DNA of 64,000 nt from Paenibacillus sp. IHBB 10380 (lineage in GTDB: Bacteria; Bacillota; Bacilli; Paenibacillales; Paenibacillaceae), in the NCBI RefSeq assembly GCF_000949425.1, contig NZ_CP010976.1, forward strand, positions 2,604,001 to 2,668,000. Direction: 5' to 3'. Position 1 is the first letter of the stretch; each line of letters opens with the position of its first letter. Made by a program: the position numbers and the translations under genes. The notes beneath the pieces were generated by a model that was given only the letters and a program-made list of their open reading frames with translations, did not search any database and was not told the origin of the DNA. This document shows positions 6,719 to 64,000 of the stretch, piece by piece.

Positions 6719-6853
6719 TAGCTAACCTTTTTATTCACGAATCCCCACCATCTTAGATAGCTTATCTTAGTGGATGCGGTTGTCTGCTGATTCATCTTCT
6801 CCGAAATTCCCCGGCAGACCAGGAGCTTTAGATGCGTGAATATAGTGTTGTCT
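6719..6853 (-). repeat. attC-like site 1 (class B, degenerate)
   Basis: Opens TTAGCTAACC (mutated from TAACG) and closes GTGTTGTCTA (mutated from GTTA). The internal arm CTTAGATAGC...CTTAG and the TTCACGAA/GCGTGAATA outer stem are still clear. Confidence 0.8.
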
Positions 6854-6995
6854 ACTGTCGATTAGTATTGTTACTATATTAAGAACTATAGGGAAGTTTT
6901 TCAATATTTACCAAACTATTAAAATTATTATTAATGGGAGTATGTTTAAAGCACTTACTACTATGTAAATCCAATCTCATTGAGAAAAGAAAGTC
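6854..6995. other. Spacer after DUF3626 gene, nothing recognised
   Basis: AT-rich, no frame or hairpin of note. It is the 3' untranslated part of the DUF3626 cassette. Confidence 0.4.
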
Positions 6996-8093
6996 TTATA
7001 GTTTAAAATTTCGAAGTGGCTTTCCATATTTCACTAAAACATGCCACAATAGTTTTAATTCCTGAAGTACTTCCTTATAGCATCCACGATCACTCCAAGA
7101 AATTGGATCGCGTTTCAAGTCCATTGCAGCAGATCCAATCATGCTCACATCGATAAAATCATTTCTTGCAATGCGTTTGGCCAAGGAAGGCATCGATGGA
7201 CCTCTAAAATCCGCAGGAACCTCGTCTACCCAAAGCGCAAAGCCCATGTGCCAATAGAGATCTATTGAATACTTTAGACATATTTTCTCTAAGGTCCTGC
7301 CTATATGAGTGTCCTTGAATGAAGGATCTGCAACAAGCACTTTGACGTCTTCTTTAAGAGAAATATCACCATGAACCTGAGCTTCAATATAGTGGTTAAG
7401 ATTGCGGTTTGGATCTTTGTTTGTAGGATCCGAGAATGGTCTCTCTAGATTAACCAGGACATGATCGATTAATTTTCGTAGCGTCATATTTTTTTCACCG
7501 ATAGCGAAATTTCTAAAGAATGCCTCCTTCATGAGGGCCGCCAAAATGATATTGAACTCCTCATAAGTACCCTTTTCCTTCGGATCTTGATGCGAATCCA
7601 AATAAGTGTATGTGCTACGATATGAGACCTCCGGGGATAGAATGAAATAGCATGATCCAAAGCGTGGAGCTGGTCCATCTGGATGTAACATCAAATCTAG
7701 TGCGCCATACTTGGGTCGTTGGCTATTGGTTGAGTCCTTTAGGTGATATGCTCCTCCAAAAATCTTCTTCTCCCAAAGGTCTCGTTCACCGCCAGGGTAA
7801 GCCGATACGCTGCCATTAGATAATAATGTCTCAAACTGACTTTTATAAATTCCCTGCTCAAGCAGTGCTTCAGCAACGCTTTTCATATTCGTCGGATCTG
7901 GTCTATCTGGATGAAAATGTAGGGCAATCTTTGCGTGCGCCTTTAACTTAACGACGGCGTCTTCAAATGTTTTATACGCGATATTAGAAATTTGAAGGAT
8001 TTCCTTAATTACTCGCTCATCTTCATTTTTTTGGCTTCTTGCGTACTTTGTAAGATGCTCTAAAGCCAATAATTGTGACCTTGATAATTTCAT
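6996..8093 (-). CDS. DUF3626 family protein
   Basis: The stretch HFHPDRPDPTNMKSVAEALL, then GIYKSQFETLLSNGSVSAYPGG and RPKYGALDLMLHPDGPAPRFGS, is characteristic of DUF3626, whose function is unknown. I choose ATG at 8093 (MKLSRSQLLALEHL), which fits the family N-terminus and has GGAGAG upstream; the frame is open to a TTG at 8177 without a ribosome site. It shares a cassette with the broken aac(3) gene upstream, with no repeat between them, so a repeat was probably lost here. Confidence 0.85.
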   Translation of the reverse strand: MKLSRSQLLALEHLTKYARSQKNEDERVIKEILQISNIAYKTFEDAVVKLKAHAKIALHFHPDRPDPTNMKSVAEALLEQGIYKSQFETLLSNGSVSAYPGGERDLWEKKIFGGAYHLKDSTNSQRPKYGALDLMLHPDGPAPRFGSCYFILSPEVSYRSTYTYLDSHQDPKEKGTYEEFNIILAALMKEAFFRNFAIGEKNMTLRKLIDHVLVNLERPFSDPTNKDPNRNLNHYIEAQVHGDISLKEDVKVLVADPSFKDTHIGRTLEKICLKYSIDLYWHMGFALWVDEVPADFRGPSMPSLAKRIARNDFIDVSMIGSAAMDLKRDPISWSDRGCYKEVLQELKLLWHVLVKYGKPLRNFKL

Positions 8094-8248
8094 GGGCAGA
8101 TGGGTCTCTCCTTTTGTACCGAAATTCGAATTTGCACCCTCTTTTGTTTTTACCTTAGAAATGATAGTTGAAGACAAAAGGGAATTTATAAAAAAACATT
8201 ATCCTAATCGGAAACGATAGTTGAATTTCTTGAAATTATTTTTTCAAT

Positions 8249-9045
8249 CTATCTTCTATTCTGGTTCATCCATCCTAAGGCGTAATCGATCATTTTTTTC
8301 TGTGGTATTAAGTAACTCACGACCTCTCCCACCAGTCCCTCTTTAACCAAATTAGTTTTGGATTTGAAATCATAAAAAATCTTGTCAAAATCATCAGATT
8401 CATTATTAATATCATCATATGTAGCCCATTGTTCTTTTCCATCCAGCATTTTTACTTCCCATGCTTTAGGTTTAATGAAAGTGTTCTGTTCTCCTGTCTG
8501 TACTCAGCCAGATGTAATGAACTATTAGTATTAGTTGGAGCTCCAAGTAATAGAATAAATCCCTCTAATTCATAGATCTTTCCCAAGGGAGAATCCTCAC
8601 TTAATGCATAATCTAGTCTATGATTTTCAGTTATTCTTATAGCATCTTTACCCCACGCAGCAAATGAAGCATGCGGGTGTGAACTTCTAAACACACCATT
8701 TTGTTTTCTGAATGTTTCAGGAATGAATCCCATATACGAAGTTGGTGTTACATCAGGGTAATATATAGGCATATTCTCTCTTATTATTTTTATTTCTTCT
8801 CCGGTCAGGCCATCATTATATTCTGTCGGTTCACAAAGATGTTCAGATTGAGTCGGCATAACGATATTTCCAGTAATCCCAACTGCCTCTTCCAATGCTA
8901 ATATTACAGTAACAGGCCCCCCTACAACTTTTCCTAGAGATTTCAAAGAGGAATGGACGATCAAAGTCATTCCTTCTTTTACACCCAGTCGTTGTAAATC
9001 CTCAACAATTGTCTTTCTCGTTTGTAAAGTACTGGATATCCCCAT
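8249..9045 (-). pseudogene. Aminoglycoside N(3)-acetyltransferase, frameshifted
   Basis: AAC(3) enzymes use acetyl-CoA to acetylate aminoglycosides. The first part (8452-9045) has MTLIVHSSLKSLGKVVGG, MPTQSEHL, RSSHPHASFAAWGKDA and LLLGAPTNTNSSLHLAE, all AAC(3) motifs; the C-terminal 66 residues (8249-8449, ending DYALGWMNQNRR) continue in another frame. A frameshift near 8450 therefore splits the gene. The upstream frame extension to 9234 is translation of the adjoining repeat and not real; ATG at 9045 fits the family. Confidence 0.85.
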
Positions 9046-9091
9046 TTTTATCACCTGATACAATTTATTTGTTAAATGTAATGCGAGGATT

Positions 9092-9258
9092 TCTGATAAT
9101 GTTGCGGATTCCTGACGTCCGAACGGCTTAAAGACCGTAGGTGTCCGGGTGGCTCTGCCCCTAGCCGATTGGATGTGTCGCCTGAATTCACTTCTTAGAG
9201 ATTCCTCTTGGTGACTGAGGAGCGTCAGCGACAATGTAGGAATGTAATGTTAGATGAT
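9092..9258 (-). repeat. attC-like site 2 (class A)
   Basis: TTCTGATAATG to GTTAGATGATG. Full arms; closing core pairs with the opening core of site 3 (TCATCTAAC) across the GNAT gene. Confidence 0.9.
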
Positions 9259-9287
9259 GGACATGCCTTCTCTAAAATGCAGAATAT

Positions 9288-9728
9288 TCACTTAATTCTC
9301 TTATGTAAAAATATTAATCTTTCTATTTCATCAAATCCGTTTTTCTTGTAAAATTCCTCAGCTGGAATCTTCCTATTAGTCAAAAGTGTTATATTCTCGA
9401 TCCCTGCGCGTATTAAATCACCTTCTAAGTAGTTAATCAGCTTTGTTCCGATTCCACTTCGTTGTTCATCAACTTGGACACACATTTCATTAACAAAGAA
9501 TTCATCGCCTTCCCACCATCTCTTGCGAAACCCAAAAATAAAACCTCTTATTTCACTCCCTTCTTCAGCAATGAAACCTCTAAACCCAGGTGTCTGTATG
9601 TAGTCAACCAAGTATTGTTTAGCACCTTCTATCGACCAATTATCATTCCATGGTTCTTGATTAAACACATTAACTAAGAGAGTAGTACATTTCATAAGAT
9701 CATTACTCTCGAAAGGCCTTATAATCAT
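9288..9728 (-). CDS. GNAT-family N-acetyltransferase
   Basis: Acetyl-CoA dependent acyltransferase of unknown substrate. Motif A is EQRSGIGTKLINYLEGDL (Q/R-x-x-G-x-G/A), preceded by FVNEMCVQVDE; motif B is FYKKNGFDEIERLIFLHKR. The frame starts at 9746, but GGAAGAG sits nine bases before ATG 9728, giving MIIRPFESNDL, the typical GNAT beginning. A single-gene cassette between sites 2 and 3. Confidence 0.9.
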   Translation of the reverse strand: MIIRPFESNDLMKCTTLLVNVFNQEPWNDNWSIEGAKQYLVDYIQTPGFRGFIAEEGSEIRGFIFGFRKRWWEGDEFFVNEMCVQVDEQRSGIGTKLINYLEGDLIRAGIENITLLTNRKIPAEEFYKKNGFDEIERLIFLHKRIK

Positions 9729-9777
9729 TAATTTCAACTCTTCCATTTGTTTTTTGGTATTAATATTATTTGTACGT

Positions 9778-9818
9778 CTTTCATCTAACGTTTTATGTAT
9801 TCACGAACCCGAGATTAC
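9778..9818 (-). repeat. attC-like site 3 (truncated)
   Basis: Only the opening TTTCATCTAACG and the first outer-stem arm remain (TATTCACGAACCCGAGA). The rest is deleted, joining the GNAT and Nudix cassettes. Confidence 0.8.
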
Positions 9819-9854
9819 TTTCAACTCGATCTTAATTTACTTCAATTTGTTTAC

Positions 9855-10277
9855 TTAGAACTCAATATAAAATGGCTGCATTTCAGGTCTCAAACAATAA
9901 GCTATTCGATCTCTAAAGTTCTTCCAAGTTACTTTGTTTAATGCCTCTTCTATTGAATAATATCCGAGTTCTAATGCTTCTTCCGTTACTGTTAATTCTC
10001 CTCCAATTGGTCTTGCCAGAAACAAAGTATTACATATGCTTCCGTTTACATTCTGAAATACTCCACAGAATTTAATTATTTCAATATCAATTCCCGATTC
10101 CTCTTTAGTTTCTCTAATAGCCGCTTGTGAAAGAGATTCGCCTAGTTCTACCTGTCCTCCAGGCATTTCCCAGCCCCTTCTAGGGCCCTTTATCAGCAGT
10201 ATTTCATTTCTACTATTTACAACAACCGCAGCTGCGGAAAGAATATGTTTAGGCGGGATCAATCTCAAAACCTCCAT
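9855..10277 (-). CDS. Nudix hydrolase
   Basis: Hydrolyses nucleoside-diphosphate-linked substrates. The Nudix box is complete: GGQVELGESLSQAAIRETKEESGI (G-x5-E-x7-REUxEExGU) at residues 40-63. The annotated ATG (10277) lies inside the repeat core GTTAGATGGAGG; the GGAGG there sits eight bases before a TTG at residue 6, which may be the true start. If so, the ribosome site is supplied by the cassette's first bases. Confidence 0.9.
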   Translation of the reverse strand: MEVLRLIPPKHILSAAAVVVNSRNEILLIKGPRRGWEMPGGQVELGESLSQAAIRETKEESGIDIEIIKFCGVFQNVNGSICNTLFLARPIGGELTVTEEALELGYYSIEEALNKVTWKNFRDRIAYCLRPEMQPFYIEF

Positions 10278-10440
10278 CTAACGTATTTATATTCCTGACG
10301 CCTTACCAACTTAAAGCCCGTTAGGGCTGGCCGCAATGCGGTTGTCGGTGCAGGTGTGTCTTCTGAATACACTTCCTTAAAATTCCTCTTGCAGACCAAA
10401 GGGCGTATGCCCCGCTGCAGGAACATTGTGTTAGCTGAAG
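10274..10440 (-). repeat. attC-like site 4 (class D)
   Basis: CCATCTAACG to GTTAGCTGAAG; outer stem TATTCCTGA/AGGAACA, arm with AGCCCGTTAGGGCT. Closing core pairs with site 5 opening TTCAGCTAAC. Confidence 0.92.
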
Positions 10441-11075: not shown

Positions 11076-11109
11076 CAATGTCACTCCGTTCTTTATTATC
11101 TTTCAGGAA

Positions 11110-11269
11110 TTTCAGCTAACGTACCCGCATTCCTGACTTCCTAGCGGCTTAAGTGACCAAAGGAAACGACTTAGCCGGTTGAATATGTCGCCTAAATACA
11201 CTTCTCCAATATCCCTCTTGGCGACCAAGGAGCGTCAGCGACGATGTAGGAATGTAATGTTAACTGATG
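11110..11269 (-). repeat. attC-like site 5 (class A)
   Basis: TTTCAGCTAACG to GTTAACTGATG; arms GCGGCTTAAG/CTTAGCCGG and GTCGCC/GGCGAC. Confidence 0.93.
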
Positions 11270-24403: not shown

Positions 24404-24943
24404 TTATTCTGTTTGTCTCCATTCCCGTTCAAGGACTGAGTAAATTGATTCATTACACCATTTATTATTACAATATCTAACCTCTCTGAGTATGCCGTCC
24501 TTTATCATTCCAGCTCTAATCATCAATTTTTCGGACAATTCATTTTCAGTGTTTGCGTATGCAACAACTCGATGTGCATTGAGATCGCTGAATGCATATC
24601 CTATCATAAGTTCAGCTGCCTCTGTTGCATAACCTTTTTTCCAAAAATTCGAATGTAATGCCCAACCGATCTCCCATTCTCTAATTTCAGACCAATTTAA
24701 TTTAATACTTATACGACCAATAGGTTTCCTATCATCCTTCAAGCATATTGCGAGTTTGTACTTTTCACGTGGATTGTTATTTGAATCTGAAAGCACTGTT
24801 TGAAAATCATTTTGTATTTCAATTGTATCTGGTGCACTACTTTCATACTTATGTGTTATTGGATTTTGCTCCAATTCATTGTAAAAAGAGAAATCTCCTT
24901 CTATAAAATTTCTCAATAAAATTCGTTTCCCTATGATATTCAT
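24404..24943 (-). CDS. GNAT acetyltransferase, RimJ/RimL-like, copy 1
   Basis: 179 residues. MNIIGKRILLRNFIEGDFSFYNEL is the typical acetyltransf_3 start; WEIGWALHSNFWKKGYATEAAELMIGYAF is motif A and AYANTENELSEKLMIRAGM motif B. GGAGAGATAAGG upstream. About 90 percent identical over its length to 46377-46916, though the downstream repeats of the two cassettes differ. Confidence 0.92.
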   Translation of the reverse strand: MNIIGKRILLRNFIEGDFSFYNELEQNPITHKYESSAPDTIEIQNDFQTVLSDSNNNPREKYKLAICLKDDRKPIGRISIKLNWSEIREWEIGWALHSNFWKKGYATEAAELMIGYAFSDLNAHRVVAYANTENELSEKLMIRAGMIKDGILREVRYCNNKWCNESIYSVLEREWRQTE

Positions 24944-31157: not shown

Positions 31158-31943
31158 CTATTTCTTTAATCTTATTTGTAATTTATCTTTAATCTCTTGC
31201 CTGTATTCGCCTTGCATCTCATCAATTCGTGCTGCTAAAGTTGGTATCATCCATCGTTCAAGGAATCCGTCATTCATATCAGTCAGCTTAATATACTCAG
31301 TTAAATATTCCTTGTTAAAAAACTCTCGAAATTCTCTGTGAATTAACCAACTTGGAGCATTAGGCGGTAGCGAATCTGATTGAATCATCATTGAAGTTCT
31401 AGTTACATCAGCTTCTCGGTTACCTACTAATAGATTCAACCAATCAATTATTATTGGACCATTAGGTGAAATAATAATATTATCTGGATGAAAATCATAA
31501 TGACATATCATATTTCCATCAGGTAATGAATTCAACATATCTATAATAATTTGCTTCTCATGATTTGATATCTCTTGTTAATCATTAACTTTATTAGTTA
31601 TTTCTGGTTTAAGATTTGGAAGCATCTTATTCTCAACATTGTGAATCTCATATTGCAGATTTGCCATCAGCTTTGCGTTATAAGATATGCTCCGTTCTGT
31701 TGGTTCGATATGCCACAACATCGTGGGGCCATCAATTTTCTCATAAACGATACCAATCTTGCCTTCATATTCTACTGGTCCAGAATAATTAGGTGATCTC
31801 AACTTTAAGTTATTTATTATTTCTGCATTTTTCGCTTCATTCATCGCAGAACTTTGATCATAAAATATCTTTATTACTTCAGTCTTTCCCCATCGATAAA
31901 CTCCTGCAGTGTTGCCAATACCAATTAATTCACCAATTTTCAT
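31158..31943 (-). pseudogene. Aminoglycoside phosphotransferase-like kinase with in-frame ochre codon
   Basis: From ATG 31943 the N-lobe reads MKIGELIGIGNTAGVYRWGKTEVIKIF (glycine loop and Lys). TAA at 31578-31580 interrupts, then the same frame continues QEISNHEKQ...MICHYDFHPDNIIIS (catalytic HxDxxxxN) and IIIDWLN (metal Asp). One codon change would restore a 261-residue APH/choline-kinase-fold enzyme. Confidence 0.85.
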
Positions 31944-33713: not shown

Positions 33714-33915
33714 TTTCAGATAACGTTGTTGTATTCACGAACCCTCACTGCCTTAAACGACCGAAGGGAGTGACCGCGACGCGGTTAGGCAGTGCAGGGT
33801 TGTCCGGCTGACTTTGCTTCCCTGTTACTGAATCATCTTCTTCAAAACTACTTCTTACAACTTCGGCCGGACCAAGGAGCGATAGCGACGCAGCGCGAAT
33901 ACGGTGTTATAAGAT
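33714..33915 (-). repeat. attC-like site 32 (class C, long)
   Basis: TTTCAGATAACG to GTTATAAGATG, 202 bp, the longest copy; the third arm is lengthened between CGGCTGA and GGCCGGACC. Confidence 0.92.
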
Positions 33916-34029
33916 GTCGGGGGCTTCCTGAATTCACTTTCAAAATATGCTCTTCTATATGTTCTAATTTTAATTATTCATTGCACTATATATCTGTTAA
34001 AAACTAATGCTTTTCAGTTTAGAATTCTT

Positions 34030-34212
34030 CTAAGAAAAGAAAATTAAGATGCCTCCAAATAATAAAATACAAATAAATACTACAATAAATGCAACTATAA
34101 AGTTTAACCATGCTGGACGTTCGCCAATCAGCTCTTTATTCAATTGAGTAATTTTGATTTCAATATTTTCTAGTCTTTCATTGATCTTTTTTAATTCATT
34201 TTCAATCTCCAT
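34030..34212 (-). CDS. Small coiled-coil, single-span membrane protein
   Basis: 60 residues from ATG 34212 with GGAGG upstream. Coiled-coil heptads (ELKKINERLENIEIKITQLN) then a C-terminal membrane helix (FIVAFIVVFICILLFGGILI), resembling tail-anchored or hemolysin-XhlA-type small proteins. Unknown role. Confidence 0.65.
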   Translation of the reverse strand: MEIENELKKINERLENIEIKITQLNKELIGERPAWLNFIVAFIVVFICILLFGGILIFFS

Positions 34213-34253
34213 TGAAAATCCTCCAAATAATATCAAGTATAGTCTTTCCCCGA

Positions 34254-34379
34254 TTTCTTATAACGTTCCTGTATTCATGAACCCCGTCAGGGGTTGTCTG
34301 CTGAAATTCCTCTTCGAAATCCATTCCGCAGACCCAGGCTCCGATAGGAGCCTCAGCTTGAATATTATGTTATACGACG
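34254..34379 (-). repeat. attC-like site 33 (class C, short form)
   Basis: TTTCTTATAACG to GTTATACGACG, 126 bp; CCCCGTCAGGGGTTGTCTGC arm. Opening pairs with site 32 closing core GTTATAAGA. Confidence 0.92.
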
Positions 34380-46984: not shown

Positions 46985-47155
46985 TTTCCTATAACGTTCG
47001 CGCATTACCGACGTCCTGACGGCCTAAGGACCGAAGGTCCGGGTGGCTCTGCCACTTAGCCGGTTGGATGTGTCACCTGAATTAACTTCTACGAAACTTC
47101 TTCCTGGTGACCAAGGGAGCGTAGCGACCGCTGTGGTAATGCAATGTTAGGCGAT
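46985..47155 (-). repeat. attC-like site 47 (class A1)
   Basis: TTTCCTATAACG to GTTAGGCGATG. Nearly identical to site 58 from AACG onward. Confidence 0.95.
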
Positions 47156-47172
47156 GTATCTGCCTTCTTCGA

Positions 47173-47650
47173 TTAGACTGTCATTACAATTACTCCTTCT
47201 TGATAATCTTCTATCTTATCAATGTTTAACCATAGAGTTTCTTCATCCCTTAATCTATGAAACCGTACGATTGTATCATCATCATGAAAAGTTAAAATTA
47301 CATTGAATTTATAATGAGGAAAATCAAGTTTAAGTTTAGTTGCCCACATCTCCATTAACTTCTTAGCAAATCGTAGTCCTTCTAACGGGTACTTTCTAAA
47401 AGTCTTCGAAATATCAATCATATGTACATGACTTTCACTTGCTTCAAAACCAGTTTGATCCCCAAATTGTTTAATAATATGATCAAATTTGATCTCAGTA
47501 TTTTTTTCTGAATTCTTTTTGAATTAGAATACACTCTTCTACTTCAACAAATTTAGGCCAAAAAACATCAATTAATTCAGATTGATCATGATACTTATTA
47601 ACATATTTGTTTTCGATTGTTTCAAACATCTTCTTGTTTCTAATCTCCAT
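47173..47650 (-). pseudogene. Hypothetical gene, copy 1, frameshifted
   Basis: ATG 47650 reads MEIRNKKMFETIENKYVNKY...ILIQKEFRKKY then stops; the remainder (MIDISKTFRKYPLEGLRFAK... to 47173) is in another frame. Compared with copy 2 (56761-57237), a run of four T (plus strand near 47516) has become five. The intact copy shows what was lost. Confidence 0.85.
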
Positions 47651-47688
47651 TGAATCAGCCCCTGATGTCTTTTTATTCCTTGCAGATA

Positions 47689-47855
47689 TTTCACCTAACG
47701 TTTCAGCATTCACGAACCCTCACTGGCTTCAGCGCGTAGCGCGGGTCGTCAGACTTAGCCGGTGCAGGGTTGTCCGCTTGAATCCGCTTCCTACGAAATT
47801 GCCTCTTGCGGCCCGAGGGCGTCAGTCCGATGCATGAATGCGGTGTTATAGGATG
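47689..47855 (-). repeat. attC-like site 48 (class C)
   Basis: TTTCACCTAACG to GTTATAGGATG; CTCACTGGCTTCAGCGCG/CTTAGCCGGTGCAGGG. Confidence 0.93.
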
Positions 47856-47897
47856 TCAGCGCCTTCTTCGAAATACTTACACTATTCAACTCCCTCG

Positions 47898-48689
47898 TCA
47901 CCCATTAGTTAATGATTTTTCCTGCTTTATTTCACCTATCATGAAGTCAACGAAATCTGATAGCTGGTGGGGATCCAATTCGCTTTTATCTATATCACCG
48001 TTGTATTCTTTTAAACATTCATTTACTAGTCCCTGGTATTTTAGAGGTAATTCCTTTGCTCCCCACTCTCCACCCTCGCGCTTAGAAGATACAATTCCCT
48101 CTTTTATAAAGTACAGGACTCTGCAAAGATTTAAGGTAAGGTACATGGGTGTAAGGTACACTGGGGGATTGATTTTTATATCACGCGAAGCTCCTTCTAC
48201 ATCATTTAGAATTGAAGCAAGGTAAAATTGTTTATCGATTGGTTCACAAATTTCACTTAATGGCTTTCCATACAACGTTATCCCACGCTGATAGGCAACA
48301 ACCATTTGTGAAGCTAAATCTTCATCTTCAAATCCTCCACAAAGATAATTCTCATCTGCACGATATTTATCCCGATGATAATCCGAATAATGAAATTCAA
48401 AGGGTGTGGGATAAACAAAAGGGGTCAGATAAGTTTCAAGTATGATGCTGAACTCTACTCCACGATCATTAGGCATTTCATCATGCAAAGATAGAGCGAT
48501 ATTTGCAATTCGATTATTATTTACTGGTGTCAGCTTTTCTCTTACTATAACTAAAAAGTCGATATCACTTCTTTTGGGATTAAAGCATCCCATCGCTAAA
48601 GACCCATGTAAATAAATACCTAACAAATTTTCCTTAAGTTCTTCTTTAAATGATGTAACGATTTTGTCTAAGTACACCTGAGTATTCAA
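47898..48689 (-). CDS. Aminoglycoside nucleotidyltransferase (AadA/ANT(9)-like)
   Basis: 263 residues, the AadA length. GIYLHGSLAMGCFNPKRSDIDFLVIV is the nucleotidyltransferase GS-x10-DxD motif, and the DUF4111 C-terminal half (LNLCRVLYFIKEGIVSSKREGGEWG) follows. These enzymes adenylate streptomycin/spectinomycin; the true substrate here is unproven. TTG start with AAAGGTGG upstream. The same family is common in mobile integron cassettes. Confidence 0.9.
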   Translation of the reverse strand: MNTQVYLDKIVTSFKEELKENLLGIYLHGSLAMGCFNPKRSDIDFLVIVREKLTPVNNNRIANIALSLHDEMPNDRGVEFSIILETYLTPFVYPTPFEFHYSDYHRDKYRADENYLCGGFEDEDLASQMVVAYQRGITLYGKPLSEICEPIDKQFYLASILNDVEGASRDIKINPPVYLTPMYLTLNLCRVLYFIKEGIVSSKREGGEWGAKELPLKYQGLVNECLKEYNGDIDKSELDPHQLSDFVDFMIGEIKQEKSLTNG

Positions 48690-48770
48690 ATTTTTTAAAC
48701 CACCTTTCCACTTCCCGTTAGTTTAAACTACTAAGAATGAATTGCCTTTGATTTTCCGTTTTACGCTGAA

Positions 48771-48782
48771 TTCCTATAACGG
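48771..48782 (-). repeat. attC-like site 49 (remnant, opening core only)
   Basis: ATTCCTATAACGG pairs with GTTATAGGA of site 48; the rest of the repeat has been replaced by unrelated sequence. Confidence 0.75.
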
Positions 48783-48877
48783 TTGGGTAGTTTTTTTGGT
48801 ACATAATATAAGAACCATAATAATTTCATTTTCGAACACGTGACTTTCTGGAATAAGTCGCTTAAACTATATGTGCT

Positions 48878-49231
48878 TTATCCCACTATTGTAAAGTTTT
48901 CCTCACCCTCACTAATAGGTAGTTCAGTTATAGTCATTTTCTTTACAGATGCCCGTTTCAATGACTGCATGCAATTGACCAAAAAATAAATTTGCGACTC
49001 TTCCCCTTGAAGTTCTGCTTCCACACTTCCATCTTTTAAATTTTTCACCCATCCCGTTAATTTCATTCTTTGAGAAATACAATATATTTCCAAGCGGAAT
49101 CCTACTTTTTGTACCCTTCCAGAAAAAGTAACTTTTTTTCTGACTATAGTGCTTGATATAAATTTTGGAAACCTAATACGATTTGCATGCGAAATTACAT
49201 ATTCATCTCTTAATTTCTTGAAAACACTCAT
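48878..49231 (-). CDS. Acylphosphatase-like protein
   Basis: 117 residues. VTFSGRVQKVGFRLEIYCISQ carries the GRVQxVGFR phosphate cradle with catalytic Arg, and LTGWVKNLKDGSVEAELQGE the catalytic Asn. N-terminal 30 residues (KKLRDEYVISHANRIRFPKF) are an extension. AAGGAG before ATG. Fused by loss of site 49 with the nucleotidyltransferase cassette. Confidence 0.9.
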   Translation of the reverse strand: MSVFKKLRDEYVISHANRIRFPKFISSTIVRKKVTFSGRVQKVGFRLEIYCISQRMKLTGWVKNLKDGSVEAELQGEESQIYFLVNCMQSLKRASVKKMTITELPISEGEENFTIVG

Positions 49232-49374
49232 TCTATGTACTCCTTTTTATGACTGTTTTATTATTTCGGATTGTTGAACACAAGTAAATAGCACTCTTCA
49301 ACTAAGCTACTCCGTTAGTTTAATTCAACAATGAATTTAAATAGACTTTGATTTTTTTATATTTCTTGCGCTGA

Positions 49375-49547
49375 TTTCCTATAACGTTTCCGTGTTTACG
49401 AACCCTCACCGACTTAAGGGGCAAAGGCCTCGACGCGGTTAGTCGGTGCAGGGTTGTCCGCCTGACACAGCTCCTCTTCCGAACTCCTCTGGCAGACCAA
49501 AGAACGGCATCAGCCGGACCGCTGCGTGAATACAATGTTATAGGATG
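49375..49547 (-). repeat. attC-like site 50 (class C)
   Basis: TTTCCTATAACG to GTTATAGGATG; GTGTTTACG/CGTGAATAC outer stem. Confidence 0.93.
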
Positions 49548-51297: not shown

Positions 51298-51726
51298 TCA
51301 AACTCTTCCTTCATTAAAATATGTTATTTCTATATCTCTTTTTACGATTTCACTTAAACCTTCCTTATAATATGGCATTAAGTCTTCCGCTTTTTTTAAA
51401 TCTATCCAGTCAATTTCCATAATTTCTTCTGGTCTAACAACTTCTTCTTGTCCACCAATGATTTCAGCTCTGAAAGTAAAAAGTAAAGCATGTTCATTTA
51501 CTCTCTGAATGAAAGCTTCATTAACAGCAACAATTCCATAAACTGCAACATCCAATCCCGTTTCTTCTTTTGCTTCTCTAATTGCGGCTATTTCTAAAGT
51601 TTCATTTGCTTCAACAGCACCACCAGGAAGAGTCCAACATCCATTATCTTTATTCTTTACCATTAGAATTTTTGATTTTGTACTGTCAGTTATTAATGAG
51701 TAAACAACATCTATTCTTTTCATCAT
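51298..51726 (-). CDS. Nudix hydrolase
   Basis: 142 residues; Nudix box GGAVEANETLEIAAIREAKEETGL at residues 36-59, complete. AAGAAGG upstream of tandem ATG codons (either may start). Distinct from the 9855-10277 Nudix. Confidence 0.93.
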   Translation of the reverse strand: MMKRIDVVYSLITDSTKSKILMVKNKDNGCWTLPGGAVEANETLEIAAIREAKEETGLDVAVYGIVAVNEAFIQRVNEHALLFTFRAEIIGGQEEVVRPEEIMEIDWIDLKKAEDLMPYYKEGLSEIVKRDIEITYFNEGRV

Positions 51727-53322: not shown

Positions 53323-53352
53323 TCAGCGCCTTACTTTTCGTCTCTAATTTTT

Positions 53353-54849
53353 TTATAGACTTCTTCTAATTATTACTATTTTTTTAATATTAATTATAAT
53401 CGATAAAATACAATTGATAGCAGCAAGACCCATCCAAATATATACTGAATACGACATCCACACCCCTATCCTATAATAATTAAAATTTAATAGATAAGGC
53501 CAGATAAATACCAATGCCAAAAACATAATTCTTAAGATAAGTCCGATACTACTTCCAATTATTTTCCTGACTCTTGTCTTTTCATCTTTAATGTTTAGTT
53601 TTATCCCTCTAACTAGTTTAATTACCTTGAGACATAAGTTAACGACTGCTATTATTACTAAGAATGAAAATATCAAATCAATTAATACATAAACGTCATC
53701 ATAATTAAATTTATTCATAGGATTGCCATTCATATTCTCATATATATTATTAGCAATTAGCGATGGTGCAGTTGAATTCATATTAGCCAGTACAAATATG
53801 GCCTGCTGCTTTTCTAAATTAATAATAACCTGCGAGGAATAATTAGGATTAGCTCCAATATGACTAACAACTCTATTTTTCGTATCAATACTCCATCCGA
53901 ATGAATAGTATTGATTTTCATCTTCATATCCAGCTGTTTTTATGTCGACTTGATGAGATTGTTGTATAGCATTCATTAGATTATCTGGTATATCGCCTAT
54001 CCCCATTTGGGCATTAATCCAGCGTTCTAAATCCTTTAAATTAGTTACCAAATATCCTGCTGCAATATTACCATAATATCTAGGGGCATCATATTCTAAG
54101 CCCTTACCAAATAATATACGATATCCTTTGGTAAGTTTATCAGATTCCTTTTCCTGACCTGTTGAAAAATAACTGTCAGTCATTCCTAAAGGAACCAGTA
54201 TATTTTCAGTTATGTAATCCTGATAACTTTTACCTGTAACTTTTTCAATAATCATCGCTAAAATATCATAATTAACGGTTGCATAATTATGTTCTGTCCC
54301 AGGATATGTATCTAATGCAATGTCTGAAATATTATGTATGGTTTTTTCAAGCAAATCCTCCGTAGTACCTTCAGGAATTAACCGAATACTCCACGGCGGA
54401 ATTCCACTTGTATGAGCTAACAACTGATTAATAGTAATATTACCCTTCTCACCCTTAAAGGTTGGCTCAAACGAAGGAAGATAATCTGAAATAGAATCTG
54501 AGTAAGATAAGTATCCCTCATCTTCTAATAAAATCATGGCCAAAGCCGTAAACGCCTTGGTAGTCGATCCCAATTCAAACAATGATTCTTCAGTAACCAT
54601 CTTCTTGTTATTAACATCTGCATATCCGTAATTCTTATATTCTGTCTCGCCCTGCTTCGACAATACCACAGCTACTCCTGGAGTTGCTGATTTGGACATT
54701 ATGGTTTCCACCATATCATCCGCATTATCATAATTTCCTGTCCTTAACAAAGTTCCAAGTTCATCCCAACAAACAACAGTAGTAATTATCACGATAAGCA
54801 GGATGACACATGCTATTGATGAACCTGTTTTACTTAGTATTTTCTTCAT
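53353..54849 (-). CDS. Beta-lactamase-related serine hydrolase with membrane C-terminus
   Basis: 498 residues. An N-terminal span (IACVILLIVIITTVVCW) is followed by a class C/PBP4-like domain: LFELGSTTKAFTALAMIL with catalytic Ser-x-x-Lys (STTK), HNYATVNYDILAMII (Tyr-x-Asn region) and VVSHIGANPNYSS (HxG). The last 130 residues have four membrane spans. Likely a D,D-peptidase or esterase at the cell surface; resistance unproven. Largest cassette gene here. Confidence 0.88.
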   Translation of the reverse strand: MKKILSKTGSSIACVILLIVIITTVVCWDELGTLLRTGNYDNADDMVETIMSKSATPGVAVVLSKQGETEYKNYGYADVNNKKMVTEESLFELGSTTKAFTALAMILLEDEGYLSYSDSISDYLPSFEPTFKGEKGNITINQLLAHTSGIPPWSIRLIPEGTTEDLLEKTIHNISDIALDTYPGTEHNYATVNYDILAMIIEKVTGKSYQDYITENILVPLGMTDSYFSTGQEKESDKLTKGYRILFGKGLEYDAPRYYGNIAAGYLVTNLKDLERWINAQMGIGDIPDNLMNAIQQSHQVDIKTAGYEDENQYYSFGWSIDTKNRVVSHIGANPNYSSQVIINLEKQQAIFVLANMNSTAPSLIANNIYENMNGNPMNKFNYDDVYVLIDLIFSFLVIIAVVNLCLKVIKLVRGIKLNIKDEKTRVRKIIGSSIGLILRIMFLALVFIWPYLLNFNYYRIGVWMSYSVYIWMGLAAINCILSIIINIKKIVIIRRSL

Positions 54850-54922
54850 TGTAATTCTCCCTTTTGTAAGTCTTCTAAAATATTATACACCATCCATAAT
54901 TACCTGCTTGGTGCCTTTATGG

Positions 54923-55043
54923 CCTAGAAAGCGAAGTTCTTGAAGCCATTTAATTCTTTAAGATTCTCTGAGTCTATGCCGTATAATTCAGCAGCTTTCA
55001 TTAAAATATCACGATTAAAGAGAGATATAATTTCCTTATCCAT
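54923..55043 (-). pseudogene. Phosphotransferase N-terminal fragment
   Basis: The minus strand ATG 55043 reads MDKEIISLFNRDILMKAAEL, YGIDSENLKELNGFKNF, then stop: the opening of a phosphotransferase-like protein (APH N-terminus). Remainder deleted; shares the beta-lactamase cassette. Confidence 0.65.
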
Positions 55044-56573: not shown

Positions 56574-56744
56574 TTTCACATAACGTTCGCGCATTACCGA
56601 CGTCCTGACGGCCTAAGGACCGAAGGTCCGGGTGGCTCTGCCACTTAGCCGGTTGGATGTGTCACCTGAATCAACTTCTACGAAAATCCTCTTGGTGACC
56701 AAGGGAGCGTAGCGACCGCTGTGGTAATGCAATGTTAGGCGATG
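56574..56744 (-). repeat. attC-like site 58 (class A1)
   Basis: TTTCACATAACG to GTTAGGCGATG; twin of site 47 from AACG on. Confidence 0.95.
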
Positions 56745-56760
56745 TATCTGCCTTCTTCGA

Positions 56761-57237
56761 TTAGACTGTCATTACAATTACTCCTTCTTGATAATCTTCT
56801 ATCTTATCAATGTTTAACCATAGAGTTTCTTCATCCCTTAATCTATGAAACCGTACGATAGTATCATCATCATGAAAAGTTAAAATTACATTGAATCTAT
56901 AATGAGGAAAATCAAGTTTAAGTTTAGTTGCCCACATCTCCATTAACTTCTTAGCAAATCGTAGTCCTTCTAACGGGAACTTTCTAAAAGTCTTCGAAAT
57001 ATCAATCATATGTACATGACTTTCACTTGCTTCAAAACCAGTTCGATCCCCAAATTGTTTAATAATATGATCAAATTTGATCTCAGTATTTTTTTCTGAA
57101 TTCTTTTGAATTAGAATACACTCTTCTACTTCAACAAATTTAGGCCAAAAAACATCAATTAATTCAGATTGATCATGATACTTATTAACATATTTGTTTT
57201 CGATTGTTTCAAGCATCTTCTTGTTTCTAATCTCCAT
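56761..57237 (-). CDS. Hypothetical protein, copy 2 (intact)
   Basis: 158 residues from ATG 57237; frame upstream is leader. MEIRNKKMLETIENKYVNKY, VFWPKFVEVEECILIQK and HYRFNVILTFHDDDTIVRFH; family not recognised. Cassette nearly identical to 46993-47700, whose gene is frameshifted. Confidence 0.8.
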   Translation of the reverse strand: MEIRNKKMLETIENKYVNKYHDQSELIDVFWPKFVEVEECILIQKNSEKNTEIKFDHIIKQFGDRTGFEASESHVHMIDISKTFRKFPLEGLRFAKKLMEMWATKLKLDFPHYRFNVILTFHDDDTIVRFHRLRDEETLWLNIDKIEDYQEGVIVMTV

Positions 57238-57275
57238 TGAATCAGCCCCTGATGTCTTTTTATTCCTTGCAGATA

Positions 57276-57444
57276 TTTCACCTAACGTCTTTGTATTCAC
57301 GAACCCTCACTGGCTTAAGCGCGCAAGCGCGGGTCCGACGGACTTAGCCAGTGCAGGGTTGTCCAGCTGCCGCCACTTCCCCGAAATTCCTCGGCCGGAC
57401 CGAGGGCCGAATGGCCCGAAGCGTGAATACATTGTTATGCGCCG
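57276..57444 (-). repeat. attC-like site 59 (class C)
   Basis: TTTCACCTAACG to GTTATGCGCCG; GTATTCACG/CGTGAATAC outer stem and GCGCGCAAGCGCG hairpin. Confidence 0.94.
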
Positions 57445-59709: not shown

Positions 59710-59748
59710 GCTAACTGCCCCTTTCAGATTTTAATAACGAGCACAAGA

Positions 59749-59904
59749 TTTCTGATAACGTTCTTATATTCGCGACGTCAATTCCCCTTAGATAGCTCTT
59801 ATCTTAGGGGAATTGATGTATCTGCCTGAATTCTCTTCCTCGAAATCACCTCGGGCAGATCAAGGGCTGTATGGTTCGCAGCGCGAATATGGTGTTAGGC
59901 GATG
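59749..59904 (-). repeat. attC-like site 62 (class B)
   Basis: TTTCTGATAACG to GTTAGGCGATG; ATATTCGCG/CGCGAATAT outer stem, CAATTCCCCTTAGATAGC arm. Confidence 0.95.
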
Positions 59905-59925
59905 TTCCCCACTTCTTCGACTATT

Positions 59926-60969
59926 CTATCGATTTGTTTTTAAAATTGATCTTAATCTTGTATTTAAGCTTTTCTCAAGAGAGGTAGTATTATTGAAAAA
60001 AATAATATTTTGATTTTGTACGTCGAAATGAGGGATTTCACCTTCTCTTGAAACTAATACAATTTGTTTTCCGAGTGCTCTTGCATAACCAAGCTCATAA
60101 TATACATTAGGTCTATTACCTGTAAGATCTACTATCAATAATCTAGCCTTCTTAATACAATCAATTATTTTATCATTTATCACAAAATCATCGTGAATCT
60201 CATCGACTCGTTCACATCGAAATCCCTTCTTAAGGCTCTTTACTGATCTTTTAATAGTTGAATAGGTGTCTTCTAACAATGGATTGTTTTGAAAGGACAT
60301 AGCAACAAATATGTATTTATCGTCCATTACGACAGGCTCCACTTCTTTTTGAAATGGTTTGAAGTAATCTACTTTATCAAATGGAATTTCCAAACTTACT
60401 GGTGTATTATCCAATAGTGCCGTAATTTTCTTTCTTTCCATTTGTATACAACCGACGTTGACTTTATTTGAGATTTCATTCAACTCTAATGTTGTTATGC
60501 TTTCTTTTAACAATCCCTTTAGAAAATTGTTCCCATTACAAATGCTACTTTCAATTGTAAGAAAGAAGTATGTATCGACCTCAGCCTGTCCAAGGTCCTT
60601 AGCCTCAACATTCCTTAGGCCTTCCATTAGTAACGGTCCAAGTGAATCTAATTCTCCCCTATCACATAACTCATCAAATTCATCGAATATTTGATCATTT
60701 ATAGAAAAGAAATCATTAATATTCAGCTCACGATTTCCCCAATTTCCTTTTGCTTGAAAATAAATTATTGGCCTAATAATGTCATTATGTTCAAAACTAC
60801 GTTGGTTCGCTCCTATATACTCCTCTCCAAAAAAAGCTTCTAAGGTAAATATTTGCCCCGTAGCCTCTTCAACATTCACTTCTACAAATTCTGTGTAACA
60901 ATTTTTGAGAATTGTTCGAAATTCGGATCTGATTTTCTCAGCAATCATTCTAAAATTTTGTGGTTTCAT
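59926..60969 (-). CDS. Protein with C-terminal TIR-like / nucleoside deoxyribosyltransferase-like domain
   Basis: 347 residues from ATG 60969 (GGAGG upstream; the longer frame enters repeat 63). The C-terminal third has YIFVAMSFQNN, ERVDEIHDDFVINDKIIDCIKKARLLIVDLTGNRPNVYYELGYARALGKQIVL: the I-x-D-x-T-x-NPNV-x-YELG motif of this Rossmann-like family, related to NAD-processing effectors. The N-terminal 230 residues are not recognised. A defence or nucleotide-sensing role is possible. Confidence 0.78.
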   Translation of the reverse strand: MKPQNFRMIAEKIRSEFRTILKNCYTEFVEVNVEEATGQIFTLEAFFGEEYIGANQRSFEHNDIIRPIIYFQAKGNWGNRELNINDFFSINDQIFDEFDELCDRGELDSLGPLLMEGLRNVEAKDLGQAEVDTYFFLTIESSICNGNNFLKGLLKESITTLELNEISNKVNVGCIQMERKKITALLDNTPVSLEIPFDKVDYFKPFQKEVEPVVMDDKYIFVAMSFQNNPLLEDTYSTIKRSVKSLKKGFRCERVDEIHDDFVINDKIIDCIKKARLLIVDLTGNRPNVYYELGYARALGKQIVLVSREGEIPHFDVQNQNIIFFNNTTSLEKSLNTRLRSILKTNR

Positions 60970-61000
60970 AGGTCCTCCGATTTTTAATGTCATTTGGGAA

Positions 61001-61171
61001 TTTCGCCTAACGTCTTTGTATTCACGAACCCTCACTGGCTTAAGGGGCGCCAGCCCCGGGTCCGACGGACTTAGCCAGTGCAGGATTGTCCGGCTGCTCA
61101 CACTCCCCCGAAATCCCTCTGCCGGACCGAGGGGCGAATGCCCCGATGCGTGAATATATTGTTATGTGATG
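61001..61171 (-). repeat. attC-like site 63 (class C)
   Basis: TTTCGCCTAACG to GTTATGTGATG; opening pairs with GTTAGGCGA of site 62. Confidence 0.95.
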
Positions 61172-61188
61172 TCAGCATCTTCTTCGAA

Positions 61189-61686
61189 CTACTTAAGTCG
61201 GTTCTTTGATTTCTTTGCCATGTTTTTAAACTCTTCATATTTCTCTCTTGATGCTTTAATTTTACTCTCTACTACGTTTGGGGCATCAGCTGCTAAGTTA
61301 GGTAATTTCTCATTTATATAACTGTATAACAATCTTTTCTCATTATCGGTTGGAATTATGGGGGCAACAGGTATGGGTAGTGGTTTATCTTCTGCTTCTA
61401 CTTCTTCGAGTAAACTAGGCATTCCAAAAGCGAAGAAATTATGAAAAGCTCTTTTCCTATCTGCTTCCGTTTCTTCGTAATTACCATTGGAATCTAACCG
61501 AAATCGATCAAATCCAACCGTAAGCAATTGGTGTGGCTTCCTGTCTTTATTTTTGTAATACAAAATGACTACAAGTACATCCTGATTTGCTAATTGAGGT
61601 ACAGACTTATATTTGTGATTCTTGGGTTGGGGGATCTTTATAATCTTATCTCCATTAGAAAATAATAAATATCTGCATCCTGTCAT
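61189..61686 (-). CDS. Hypothetical protein
   Basis: 165 residues: beta-rich start (MTGCRYLLFSNGDKIIKIPQ), LVVILYYKNKDRKPHQLL, then acidic helix and basic tail KKSKNRLK. No family recognised. AAAGAG upstream. Confidence 0.7.
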   Translation of the reverse strand: MTGCRYLLFSNGDKIIKIPQPKNHKYKSVPQLANQDVLVVILYYKNKDRKPHQLLTVGFDRFRLDSNGNYEETEADRKRAFHNFFAFGMPSLLEEVEAEDKPLPIPVAPIIPTDNEKRLLYSYINEKLPNLAADAPNVVESKIKASREKYEEFKNMAKKSKNRLK

Positions 61687-61720
61687 TTATACCACTCTTT
61701 CAATCTTTTATTTATGCTGA

Positions 61721-61874
61721 TTTCACATAACGTTTGTGCATTCACGAAATGACCCAGCCTTAGATAGCTCTTATCTTAGGCTGGGTCATTTGTTGTCTGT
61801 GCTTCTTTCATGATTATACATCGTGACAACCAAAGGGTGATAGCCCTACAGCTTGAATGCTATGTTATACGCAG
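61721..61874 (-). repeat. attC-like site 64 (class B)
   Basis: TTTCACATAACG to GTTATACGCAG; arm identical to site 60 (ATGACCCAGCCTTAGATAGC). Confidence 0.95.
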
Positions 61875-61986
61875 TTACTGGCTTCTTCGACATACTTACA
61901 AATCTTTTTACTGATCCCGCAGGTGCATCTTCGAATTTCATCGTATACATTTTTTTGCGCTGCATACTTCCCTGAAATTTCATCAT
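61846..61986 (-). CDS. Possible small protein (46 residues)
   Basis: MMKFQGSMQRKKMYTMKFED continuing APAGSVKRFVSMSKKPVTAY; the last residues lie in the repeat. GGAGAAATTAATTAAGA is upstream. The only candidate in this 165-bp cassette; may be accidental. Confidence 0.35.
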   Translation of the reverse strand: MMKFQGSMQRKKMYTMKFEDAPAGSVKRFVSMSKKPVTAYNIAFKL

Positions 61987-62039
61987 ATTCTTAATTAATT
62001 TCTCCAGCTTATTTCTTTCAAAAACCAATCCCAGTAATT

Positions 62040-62203
62040 GCGTATAACGTTTGGCATTCCTGACGTTCAAGCAGCTTAAGTGACTGTAGGGAACGGGTCG
62101 TTAGACTTAGCTGGTTAAATGTATCGCCTGATTAATCTCCTTGAAAATCCTTCTAAGCGATCAAGGGCGAATGCCCGCAGCAGGAATGCTGTGTTAGGCG
62201 ATT
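62040..62203 (-). repeat. attC-like site 65 (class A)
   Basis: GCGTATAACG to GTTAGGCGATT; pairs with GTTATACGC of site 64. Confidence 0.94.
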
Positions 62204-62209
62204 TAATAT

Positions 62210-62974
62210 TCACTTCTCTGATTCTGCTAAATCGATCTTCTGAATTTCTATATTATCTTTGTGCCGAATGTAGACAATTGCAATTGGCCAATTAGAAGGC
62301 TTACTTTTCCCTCCCTCCAATATCCTTAATTCTCGTGCTCCAAATACAAAATAGTTGTTATCTAATAATTCATTAATTAATTTAGTTAGTTCATATCCAT
62401 ATGTAACACGCTCACCTGATTCAAATTCGCCTAGTAAACCGCCAAGATCTTGAGCGTATTGTAAAAAACTAGATATTAATTCAACTTCTTCTTCATTCTT
62501 AGGTTCATCATGATCAAACTGATAACCAAGGGCACCATCTATAATAGCAATAAGTTCTTTACCACTATTAATCATAGGTAATACTGAAGGTATATTCTCT
62601 TTAATCCTTCTAATTCTTACAGGCTTATCTTCTTTAATGCCTTGTTGATTAAGTCTCTCTGTAACCCATTTTTCATGATTTTCTTTCATTTCTTTAAGTA
62701 TACTTTCTGTAAATGTCTCGTGTTGATCATCAACCATCTTATGGTGTATCCTGCATAATAATATTAAATTATCGTTTGAATCGATCTTCTCAATAGGATG
62801 TTCAGGTTTATATCTTGGACCATTAACTTGTCCAGATATTATGTGACACTCTTCACCAACAACTGATGGATCATCATTAGTTGTAGCTTCAACAACCATT
62901 TCGTGCTTGCAAATAGAGCATCTGTTTCCAGATCTACCCCATAATATTTTCCTTGTTTTATTTGAAATTGGCAT
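62210..62974 (-). CDS. HNH endonuclease domain protein
   Basis: 254 residues. RCSICKHEMVVEATTNDD (CxxC), GEECHIISGQVNG and NDNLILLCRIHHKMVDDQHE (second Cys and the HH of HNH) in the first 90 residues; the rest (to EIQKIDLAESEK) is unrecognised. AAAGGAG upstream. A nuclease in a single-gene cassette suggests defence or a homing-like function. Confidence 0.88.
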   Translation of the reverse strand: MPISNKTRKILWGRSGNRCSICKHEMVVEATTNDDPSVVGEECHIISGQVNGPRYKPEHPIEKIDSNDNLILLCRIHHKMVDDQHETFTESILKEMKENHEKWVTERLNQQGIKEDKPVRIRRIKENIPSVLPMINSGKELIAIIDGALGYQFDHDEPKNEEEVELISSFLQYAQDLGGLLGEFESGERVTYGYELTKLINELLDNNYFVFGARELRILEGGKSKPSNWPIAIVYIRHKDNIEIQKIDLAESEK

Positions 62975-63024
62975 GAATAAGAATTCTCCTTTCGTGAGGG
63001 TCTACACAGATCTTTTGAATATTA

Positions 63025-63179
63025 TTTCGCCTAACGTTTCCGTATTCGCGACGTCCATTCCCCTTAGATAGCTCTTATCTTAGGGGAATGGATGTATCTG
63101 CCTGACTTAACATCTTCGAAAAACTTCTGGCAGGTCAAGGGCCGTTTGGCCCGCAGCGAGAATATTGTGTTAGGTGATG
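63025..63179 (-). repeat. attC-like site 66 (class B)
   Basis: TTTCGCCTAACG to GTTAGGTGATG; arm CCATTCCCCTTAGATAGC/CTTAGGGGAATGG; opening pairs with GTTAGGCGA of site 65. Confidence 0.95.
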
Positions 63180-63188
63180 TTCAGGGCA

Positions 63189-63932
63189 TCATCGAAATTC
63201 TAACTTTTCTATATTCTTATGACTGACAATTCGTTTTTTTATTGGCAATTTAATACGCAAGTTAGCTGGAAATTGCTTATTGGCAGTACAAAAACCAAAA
63301 ATAGCTATTAAAACAAATACTAATAACATAGAATAATATACATTTACAGAATTAAAGGCGAGAGGCAAATAACCTGTTGAAATATTAAGCGAAAACAAAA
63401 ATGCTACCAATACGATTAATACAGAGCATACTTTTCTGACACCAAGTCTACCATCATAAAATTTTATATCACCGCAGAACCGACAGTTACCTCCAATAAT
63501 CTTTCCTTCAAGAGAAATAAGACCCTTTCCATGAGTTATAAGAAATAGAAAACCATCTCCTGGATCAAGATAATCAAAGTTAATATGGACTTTTTCATCA
63601 ATTAGTTCCAAGTTGAGATTATTGGCTGTATTTGGACATTTCTTTATTTGAGGTTGGTCTATAATTTGTGACTTCTTTGCAATAATTCTTAATGGTTCAC
63701 GAAGTGTAATATCACTTGCTCTAATAACTTTATTTCCCGAATTCCAAATAGCGATATATGTATTTAAAGGGTATTTTAAGTTATCATCTTCAATATAAGT
63801 CAAGCTTTGATAAGATAGCCTGCATCTTGTTGCAAAATATAAACTTATCAAAAATCCGATAGTACCTCCCAGAATTACTCCTATAAGTCCATTATTAAAA
63901 AATTGGAGTATAGTAAAATAATTTATATCCAT
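63189..63932 (-). CDS. Multi-span membrane protein, unknown
   Basis: 247 residues from ATG 63932, spaced eight bases from AAAGGA (a second ATG three codons earlier abuts the site). Spans near residues 14-34 and two near 170-215; a soluble domain between contains CRFCGDIKFYDG. No family recognised. Confidence 0.65.
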   Translation of the reverse strand: MDINYFTILQFFNNGLIGVILGGTIGFLISLYFATRCRLSYQSLTYIEDDNLKYPLNTYIAIWNSGNKVIRASDITLREPLRIIAKKSQIIDQPQIKKCPNTANNLNLELIDEKVHINFDYLDPGDGFLFLITHGKGLISLEGKIIGGNCRFCGDIKFYDGRLGVRKVCSVLIVLVAFLFSLNISTGYLPLAFNSVNVYYSMLLVFVLIAIFGFCTANKQFPANLRIKLPIKKRIVSHKNIEKLEFR

Positions 63933-63952
63933 TTTGTTCATCCTTTCCTGAA

Positions 63953-64000
63953 TTTCACCTAACGTAAATGTATTCGCGACGTCCCACCACCCTAAAAGAG
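63953..64000 (-). repeat. attC-like site 67 (cut by window end)
   Basis: TTTCACCTAACG then GTATTCGCGACGTCCCACC; pairs with GTTAGGTGA of site 66. The array continues beyond the window. Confidence 0.93.

Follow-up and report, generated by a model that had tools for sequence, protein, structure and literature searches.

What kind of element is the long row of structured repeats in a 64,000-nucleotide stretch of the Paenibacillus sp. IHBB 10380 chromosome, and which enzyme could have assembled it? The stretch, hereafter the window (G000:C1:2604001-2668000 of a 5.79 Mb genome), had in an earlier note been described as holding an integron-like cassette array in a Gram-positive chromosome, and this description is supported by the sites, their orientation and the way in which their ends pair. 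From sequence comparison, the row is very probably an integron-type array of about 60 cassettes, likely moved as circles by a family of tyrosine recombinases that lacks the patch of the integron integrase IntI and that stands beside such arrays in both Paenibacillaceae and Bacteroidota. The computed support consists of attC-like sites that all face one way, the pairing between the two ends of the same cassette, cassette copies whose ends match the cassette bounds, a patchless recombinase gene upstream of the array, and a conserved attI-like sequence.

The array occupies positions 9100-64000 on the minus strand. It contains 62 distinct attC-like sites between 9.1 and 64.1 kb, 48 of them two-ended and 14 one-ended; the last site starts at the right edge (63963-64000, minus strand) and continues to approximately 64116, outside the window. 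A position-weight matrix (PWM) scan of the window and its flanks scored 50 left and 62 right ends, all of them on the minus strand and none on the plus strand, while the same scan on shuffled sequence returned one left end and no right ends. The repeats are thus real and far above chance, but the earlier count of about 67 also included unscored remnants and is here reduced to 62 scored sites. One such remnant, at 6719-6850 on the minus strand, is degenerate, was recognized by eye from its L-box-like TATTCACGAA ... GCGTGAATA arms, and represents the far end of the array; the left-most well-scored two-ended site is found at 9100-9249 (minus strand). Measured from R to R, the two-ended sites are 109-190 nt long (median 155, n = 48), and the distance separating consecutive two-ended sites has a median of 674 nt. 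A typical site (49385-49537, minus strand) displays the left end TATAAC, an L box, the apical arms, a second L box and the right end AACGTTA, and crossover would take place at the GTTA. That all repeats point one way, and that the genes nearly all face left, had been noted before. Both observations hold, as the largest open reading frame (ORF) lies in the sense direction in 52 of the 59 intervals, is antisense in four and absent in three.

Movement as circles would bring the start and the end of a cassette together, whereas in the array each of them borders on a different cassette. Each cassette start (GTTANNN...) was set against the reverse complement of the end of that cassette and against that of its array neighbor. 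Own ends match at 11.07 of 15 positions (46 cassettes in the window), while array neighbors match at 5.81 (48 sites) and permuted partners at 5.91 (sd 0.24, highest of 5000 permutations 6.87). The complementarity of own ends reaches position 16-17, about 17 bp, and is interrupted by fixed mismatches at positions 9 and 10. The cassette at 47845-49385 (minus strand), which encodes an AadA_C-type adenylyltransferase, may serve as an example; its start GTTATAGGAAATCAGCGC matches its end, read as the reverse complement, GTTATAGGATGTCAGCGC. Units moving in circular form would be expected to pair in this way. The same relationship is found in all of 20 other Paenibacillaceae loci, where own ends match better than array partners. 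When these loci are pooled, 182 own pairs match at a frequency of 0.76-0.92 at positions 4-8 and 11-16, while 183 array pairs hardly depart from the all-by-all level. At position 10, 163 of the 182 own pairs have A/G.

The folding of the sites points in the same direction. With DNA parameters the bottom strand folds at -36.1 kcal/mol in the circle form, at -29.2 kcal/mol in the array form and at -28.3 kcal/mol with a random partner, so that the circle form is about 7 kcal/mol stabler; it is stabler than the array form in 43 of 46 cases, and the bottom strand folds better than the top strand in 38 of 46. A consensus fold of 30 sites contains 23 pairs, of which 14 have changed on both sides (covariation). 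The L arms within one site match at 7.56 of 12 positions compared with 6.13 for shuffled sites (permutation sd 0.18, maximum 6.77).

These properties bear on whether the repeats might be a miniature inverted-repeat transposable element (MITE), a repetitive extragenic palindromic (REP)-like sequence, a terminator or an RNA that has been spread by transposition, with no integron involved. The sites are long, structured and numerous, and the unit ends resemble terminal inverted repeats, all of which would suit a mobile or regulatory element. However, the sites of the region are all in one orientation, the pairing joins the two ends of one cassette and would be useless to a terminator or an RNA within the array, cassette copies end at the cassette bounds, and the sole Rfam match at gathering scores is an adenosylcobalamin (AdoCbl) riboswitch beside the neighboring eut locus. 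The transposon, MITE and terminator readings were rejected on the single orientation and the own-end pairing, and the explanation as a whole is regarded as highly improbable. The earlier note had proposed that single copies in both orientations would point to transposon-like repeats; there are none in the array region, while elsewhere in the genome smaller clusters are found, one of them on the plus strand.

Several cassettes of the integron-type array have copies elsewhere. The cassette at 33724-34264 (minus strand) is also present in a second array elsewhere in the genome, being 97.3% identical over 555 nt, and the match ends 3 and 11 nt from the cassette bounds (L159 16374-16928). Another one, at 61731-62048 (minus strand), has a 75% match over 340 nt in a different Paenibacillaceae genome (L153), ending 2 and 10 nt from the bounds. 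Four duplicated blocks, 88-94% identical, exist within the array itself; for instance, the cassette at 46995-47845 (minus strand) and its flanking sites are duplicated at 56584-57434 (94.4% over 869 nt). Judged from these copies, the cassettes have likely moved. The second array (C1:2413-2428 kb; L159, C1:2410001-2430000) has 17 left and 18 right ends. In addition, smaller site clusters resembling CALIN elements (clusters of attC sites lacking integron-integrases) are found around 1434 (plus strand), 2022, 2485-2492 and 3050-3060 kb on C1.

The array stops about 0.7 kb beyond the right edge of the window, where a GNAT cassette is followed by an attI-like junction and then by a recombinase gene. 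In the coordinates of the right flank (L021, equal to window position minus 60000), the ORF of this last cassette lies at 4149-4709 (minus strand), the attI-like junction with the cassette start GTTATGCG at approximately 4730, and a degenerate tyrosine-recombinase gene at approximately 4815-5784 (minus strand). The gene is oriented as the cassettes, consists of three reading-frame pieces and is missing the middle of its catalytic domain. The second array has its own degenerate recombinase gene (approximately C1:2428.2-2428.9 kb), which is interrupted differently from the first copy. Because both recombinase copies found in the strain are broken, the arrays are expected to be immobile unless help comes in trans. 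The attI-like sequence, which ends at the GTTA of the first cassette, is conserved in an alignment of 13 loci. In a survey of 23 loci, four were without an intact integrase gene as called by script; among the remaining 19 a cassette start is found at the attI-like place in 14, while the best start in the other five is located 570-885 nt downstream. The alignment comprises 12 of these 14 near loci, L144 and L151 being left out, together with the locus of the window.

The recombinase pseudogenes of this genome would fit a fossil array, in which the patchless enzyme only excises or resolves cassettes in a Xer-like manner and capture needed another enzyme. The enzymes also score about equally well as the XerA type: three intact Paenibacillaceae proteins obtain 225, 213, and 219 bits and the homologue from F. 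enshiense 219 bits with the NF040815 XerA model, which has a cut-off of 220. Against this, the conserved attI-like junction with the start of the first cassette follows the gene in relatives, and frames of at least 330 amino acids are open in 26 of the 30 best hits that were fetched. A purely excising enzyme is thus considered very unlikely, and an enzyme that would also insert cassettes is preferred.

The window's own copy is broken, and the properties of the family were for this reason measured on intact relatives. Intact Paenibacillaceae members are approximately 380 amino acids long and consist of an N-terminal part of about 100 amino acids without a Pfam match, a SAM-like domain and a catalytic domain. 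The residues that we take to be catalytic are invariant in 20 of 20 intact relatives (alignment A2). The IntI patch, about 40 residues, is wanting. Forty-two alignment columns that at least 80% of 12 IntI proteins fill are occupied in no more than 10% of the 18 Paenibacillaceae and the same low share of the 36 other relatives, and the call rests on this column count. The spacing between the KDR and HxLRH motifs is 63-64 in 62 of the 67 measurable relatives (78 read), 67-69 in three and 140 in one, compared with 105 in the true IntI of L099; when applied to the alignment of 12 IntI proteins, the pattern used gave a spacing of 38 for two of them and none for two more. With the integron integrase model TIGR02249 (cut-off 265 bits) the three Paenibacillaceae proteins score 205, 196, and 205 bits and the F. 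enshiense protein 211, while the true IntI scores 433. In a tree of 69 rows, made by a quick method and with long-branch outgroups, the patched IntI form one group (SH-aLRT, the Shimodaira-Hasegawa-like approximate likelihood-ratio test, 100), while the patchless rows group weakly (81) with L027 outside. The earlier note had asked for a tyrosine recombinase with an IntI patch to the right of the array; the gene is there, just off the edge, but it belongs to a family without the patch.

Could a canonical IntI with the patch, either working in trans or no longer present, have built the array or still move it, with the adjacent recombinase as a bystander? The attC-like architecture, the GTTA ends and the cargo do resemble those of sedentary integrons, and Vibrio cassettes likewise show own-end pairing. 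However, when the top five candidates of each listed genome were scored, none of the 394 Paenibacillaceae genomes had a protein above the TIGR02249 cut-off. The control set of that search was silent at E 1e-60, and separate positive controls were scored, where all three records with a known IntI were above the cut-off. The patchless recombinase is moreover found upstream of an array in 20 of 20 opened genomes, and Bacteroidota show this association of enzyme and array as well. A bystander role is for these reasons judged unlikely, though somewhat less so than the two alternatives above, and the patchless family remains the favored mover. As a separate observation, the genome of L099 (G755, a Desulfocapsa metagenome-assembled genome, MAG) has two patched-IntI matches above the cut-off.

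The family is present in 148 of 394 Paenibacillaceae genomes (E<=1e-40) and, at E<=1e-60, in 20 of the 398 genomes sampled from the class, five of which are outside Paenibacillaceae. In the scan of named genomes the best 80 of 581 relatives were kept. The closest of these 80 is from Paenibacillus assamensis (69% over the C-terminal piece), and the others come from further Paenibacillus, Saccharibacillus, an Undinarchaeales MAG and many Bacteroidota. Named homologues are mostly from Paenibacillus and Saccharibacillus, with P. polymyxa, P. amylolyticus, and P. xylanexedens among the carriers. One genome in the family set of this strain (G382) has an integrase 100% identical to the one of Saccharibacillus kuerlensis (L030), and from this and the named homologues the strain was placed among the Paenibacillaceae. 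In each of the 20 opened Paenibacillaceae genomes an array lies downstream of the recombinase gene and is read in its direction. Per 20 kb, left-end hits number 5 to 26 and right-end hits 5 to 20; over all 20 loci there is one left-end and one right-end hit in the antisense direction. No intact gene was called by script in three of the 20. The array of the window is consequently not isolated but part of a system common to these 20 other genomes and Bacteroidota, and the earlier concern that no recombinase might accompany such arrays in relatives does not hold. The P. assamensis recombinase (L025 9256-10366) consists of three ORFs that overlap by 4 bases, and may be either broken or split. The relatives in the Undinarchaeales archaeon MAG (L026, L027) are 62-63% identical over the C-terminal piece, and a binning error is possible; the stretch that was fetched from it contains no site matching the Paenibacillus profile.

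When it comes to the Bacteroidota, chains of linked cassette-like units were searched for around the gene. Twenty-five of the 80 loci could be tested (those with an intact plus-strand ORF and 2.5 kb of sequence to either side), 22 of them from Bacteroidota. Chains of at least three units are found downstream in 11 of the 25 (10 of the 22 Bacteroidota), and neither upstream nor in shuffled sequence. At two units the numbers are 14 downstream, four upstream and one shuffled, and 11 of the 25 testable relatives have no chain of two. Looser de novo chains were doubtful, as in L078, where most of the 13 units were at the minimum match, and in L045 and L061, where units appeared upstream, and the stricter test was used instead. 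In the eight loci measured the sites are 125-131 nt long, and 159-162 nt in four of five F. enshiense sites. Position 10 is A/G in 31 of 34 units in eight loci; the selection of units relied on the match of their ends but took no account of positions 9, 10 and from 15 onward.

What, then, might take the place of the patch? The N-terminal domain bears a weak resemblance in both fold and sequence to the HARP/XPB DNA-junction domains. The HARP model PF07443 matches four of 21 N-terminal domains at E<=1 (best 0.002), one homologue carries a precomputed PF07443 annotation, and a profile of the domain gave no significant match among PDB sequences. The best PDB match of a full-length structure model (pTM 0.46) is IntI (2a3v), followed by XerA. 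The domains of HARP, XPB, and UvsW, which are DNA-binding and N-terminal, are joined to helicases or translocases. In the proposed mechanism, the excised circle would join the 3' and 5' ends of the cassette, which would extend the attC by an outer stem of about 17 bp. In the folded bottom strand the conserved outer mismatches would give a G-T wobble together with a T-T pair, compared with A-C and A-A on the top strand, so that the bottom strand would be favored; the mismatch at position 10, A-C on top and G-T on the bottom, may thus help in strand choice. The weakly HARP-like domain would bind the hairpin, taking the role that the patch has in IntI, and the recombinase would cut at G^TTA and integrate the circle into the attI-like site. 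An outer stem that exists only in the circle could explain why integration of excised cassettes would be more efficient than excision, and this can be tested.

By its sequence organization the array appears to work like an integron, but by strict definition it is not one, because the patch test fails. We lean toward the view that it represents a second integron lineage, spanning at least Bacillota and Bacteroidota, that has no patch, reads a longer hairpin by means of a HARP-like domain at the other end of the recombinase, has an outer stem present only in the circle, and has gone unseen because searches key on the patch. The patch has been held to enable the use of folded single-stranded sites and to mark IntI off from other recombinases (PMC9024848; PMC9668308; PMC2426708). 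The extra domain is described as making IntI easily told apart (IntegronFinder 2.0, PMC9024848), it is termed IntI-specific in an archaeal survey (PMC9668308), and a survey from 2008 retained matches in which the additional domain or patch was present and remarked that Firmicutes were absent (PMC2426708). Titles and abstract openings, in a body of literature that mostly leaves out subscription papers, mention no integron of this kind from Paenibacillus, Bacillota or Bacteroidota. Integron surveys keyed on the patch would miss these systems. If arrays accompany the family as they do in the 20 opened genomes, cassette capture would be common in these Gram-positives, the prevalence of integrons would be underestimated, and recombination of hairpins would be achievable in another way.

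The array resembles the Vibrio sedentary chromosomal integron in being a long, one-way row of mostly single-gene units with R and L boxes, GTTA ends, own-end pairing and GNAT and VOC cargo. The two differ when it comes to the enzyme, as the family described here is without the patch and has an extra N-terminal domain; in addition, its gene is read in the direction of the cassettes. The sites are also longer, with a median of 155 nt compared with the 122-nt Vibrio cholerae repeat (VCR) used as query, and in a Vibrio array (31 sites, 29 own pairs) the own-end pairing fades by about position 10, while here it reaches 16-17 with a fixed mismatch. The reverse-orientation integrons of Spirochaetota, compared by their published description, are similar in that intI is reversed, and are called as IntI (PMC9668308). 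Limnochorda pilosa shares the Firmicutes host; in the IntegronFinder 2.0 paper it has the only complete Firmicutes integron, with few CALIN elsewhere in the phylum, and as it was found by the IntI model it is presumably patched (PMC9024848). The simple tyrosine recombinases of the XerA/Xer type likewise have a catalytic domain without the patch (213-225 bits around the cut-off), but the family here has in addition the N-terminal domain of about 100 amino acids and a downstream cassette array.

The G+C content is 48% in the first 4 kb of the window and 33-38% from 8 kb onward. To the left of approximately 6.7 kb lies the eut-type locus that had been noted as a neighbor, and it does encode a GAF histidine kinase, an ANTAR regulator, EutP, a bacterial microcompartment (BMC) protein and an iron alcohol dehydrogenase. 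Two lone right-end sites are situated to the left of this locus, at window positions -10491 and -12392; the array may formerly have been longer leftward, or may have been interrupted.

Pfam was run on 40 sampled proteins of the array, of which 31 match a family at E<=0.001 and 27 are above a family's cut-off. GNAT, Nudix, VOC and aminoglycoside-modifying proteins had been predicted as cargo and are all present, as the sample includes five GNATs, two Nudix, two glyoxalase/VOC, an AAC(3)-type and an AadA-type protein, among others. Toxin-antitoxin genes, predicted as well, did not appear in the 40-protein sample, and no wider search was made. Two partial aminoglycoside phosphotransferase (APH) matches, a beta-lactamase-family protein and two R2K ATP-grasp proteins were also found. 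The following cargo genes are all on the minus strand: an aminoglycoside 3-N-acetyltransferase family protein (PF02522) at 8455-9234, a GNAT acetyltransferase at 9291-9746 with others at 24407, 30090, 46380, and 58361, a NUDIX hydrolase at 9858-10277 with another at 51301-51726, the AadA_C adenylyltransferase family protein at 47901-48689, and the beta-lactamase-family protein (PF00144, 498 amino acids) at 53356-54849. The cassette of the latter (window 53348-54979) has a copy next to the plus-strand cluster, at C1:1432.8-1434.4 kb, which is 92.6% identical over 1633 nt. One of the partial APH matches belongs to a cassette at 31158-31943, where it is split over two ORFs so that the gene looks broken, and a relative of this cassette, 92% identical over 941 nt, is found in locus L136.

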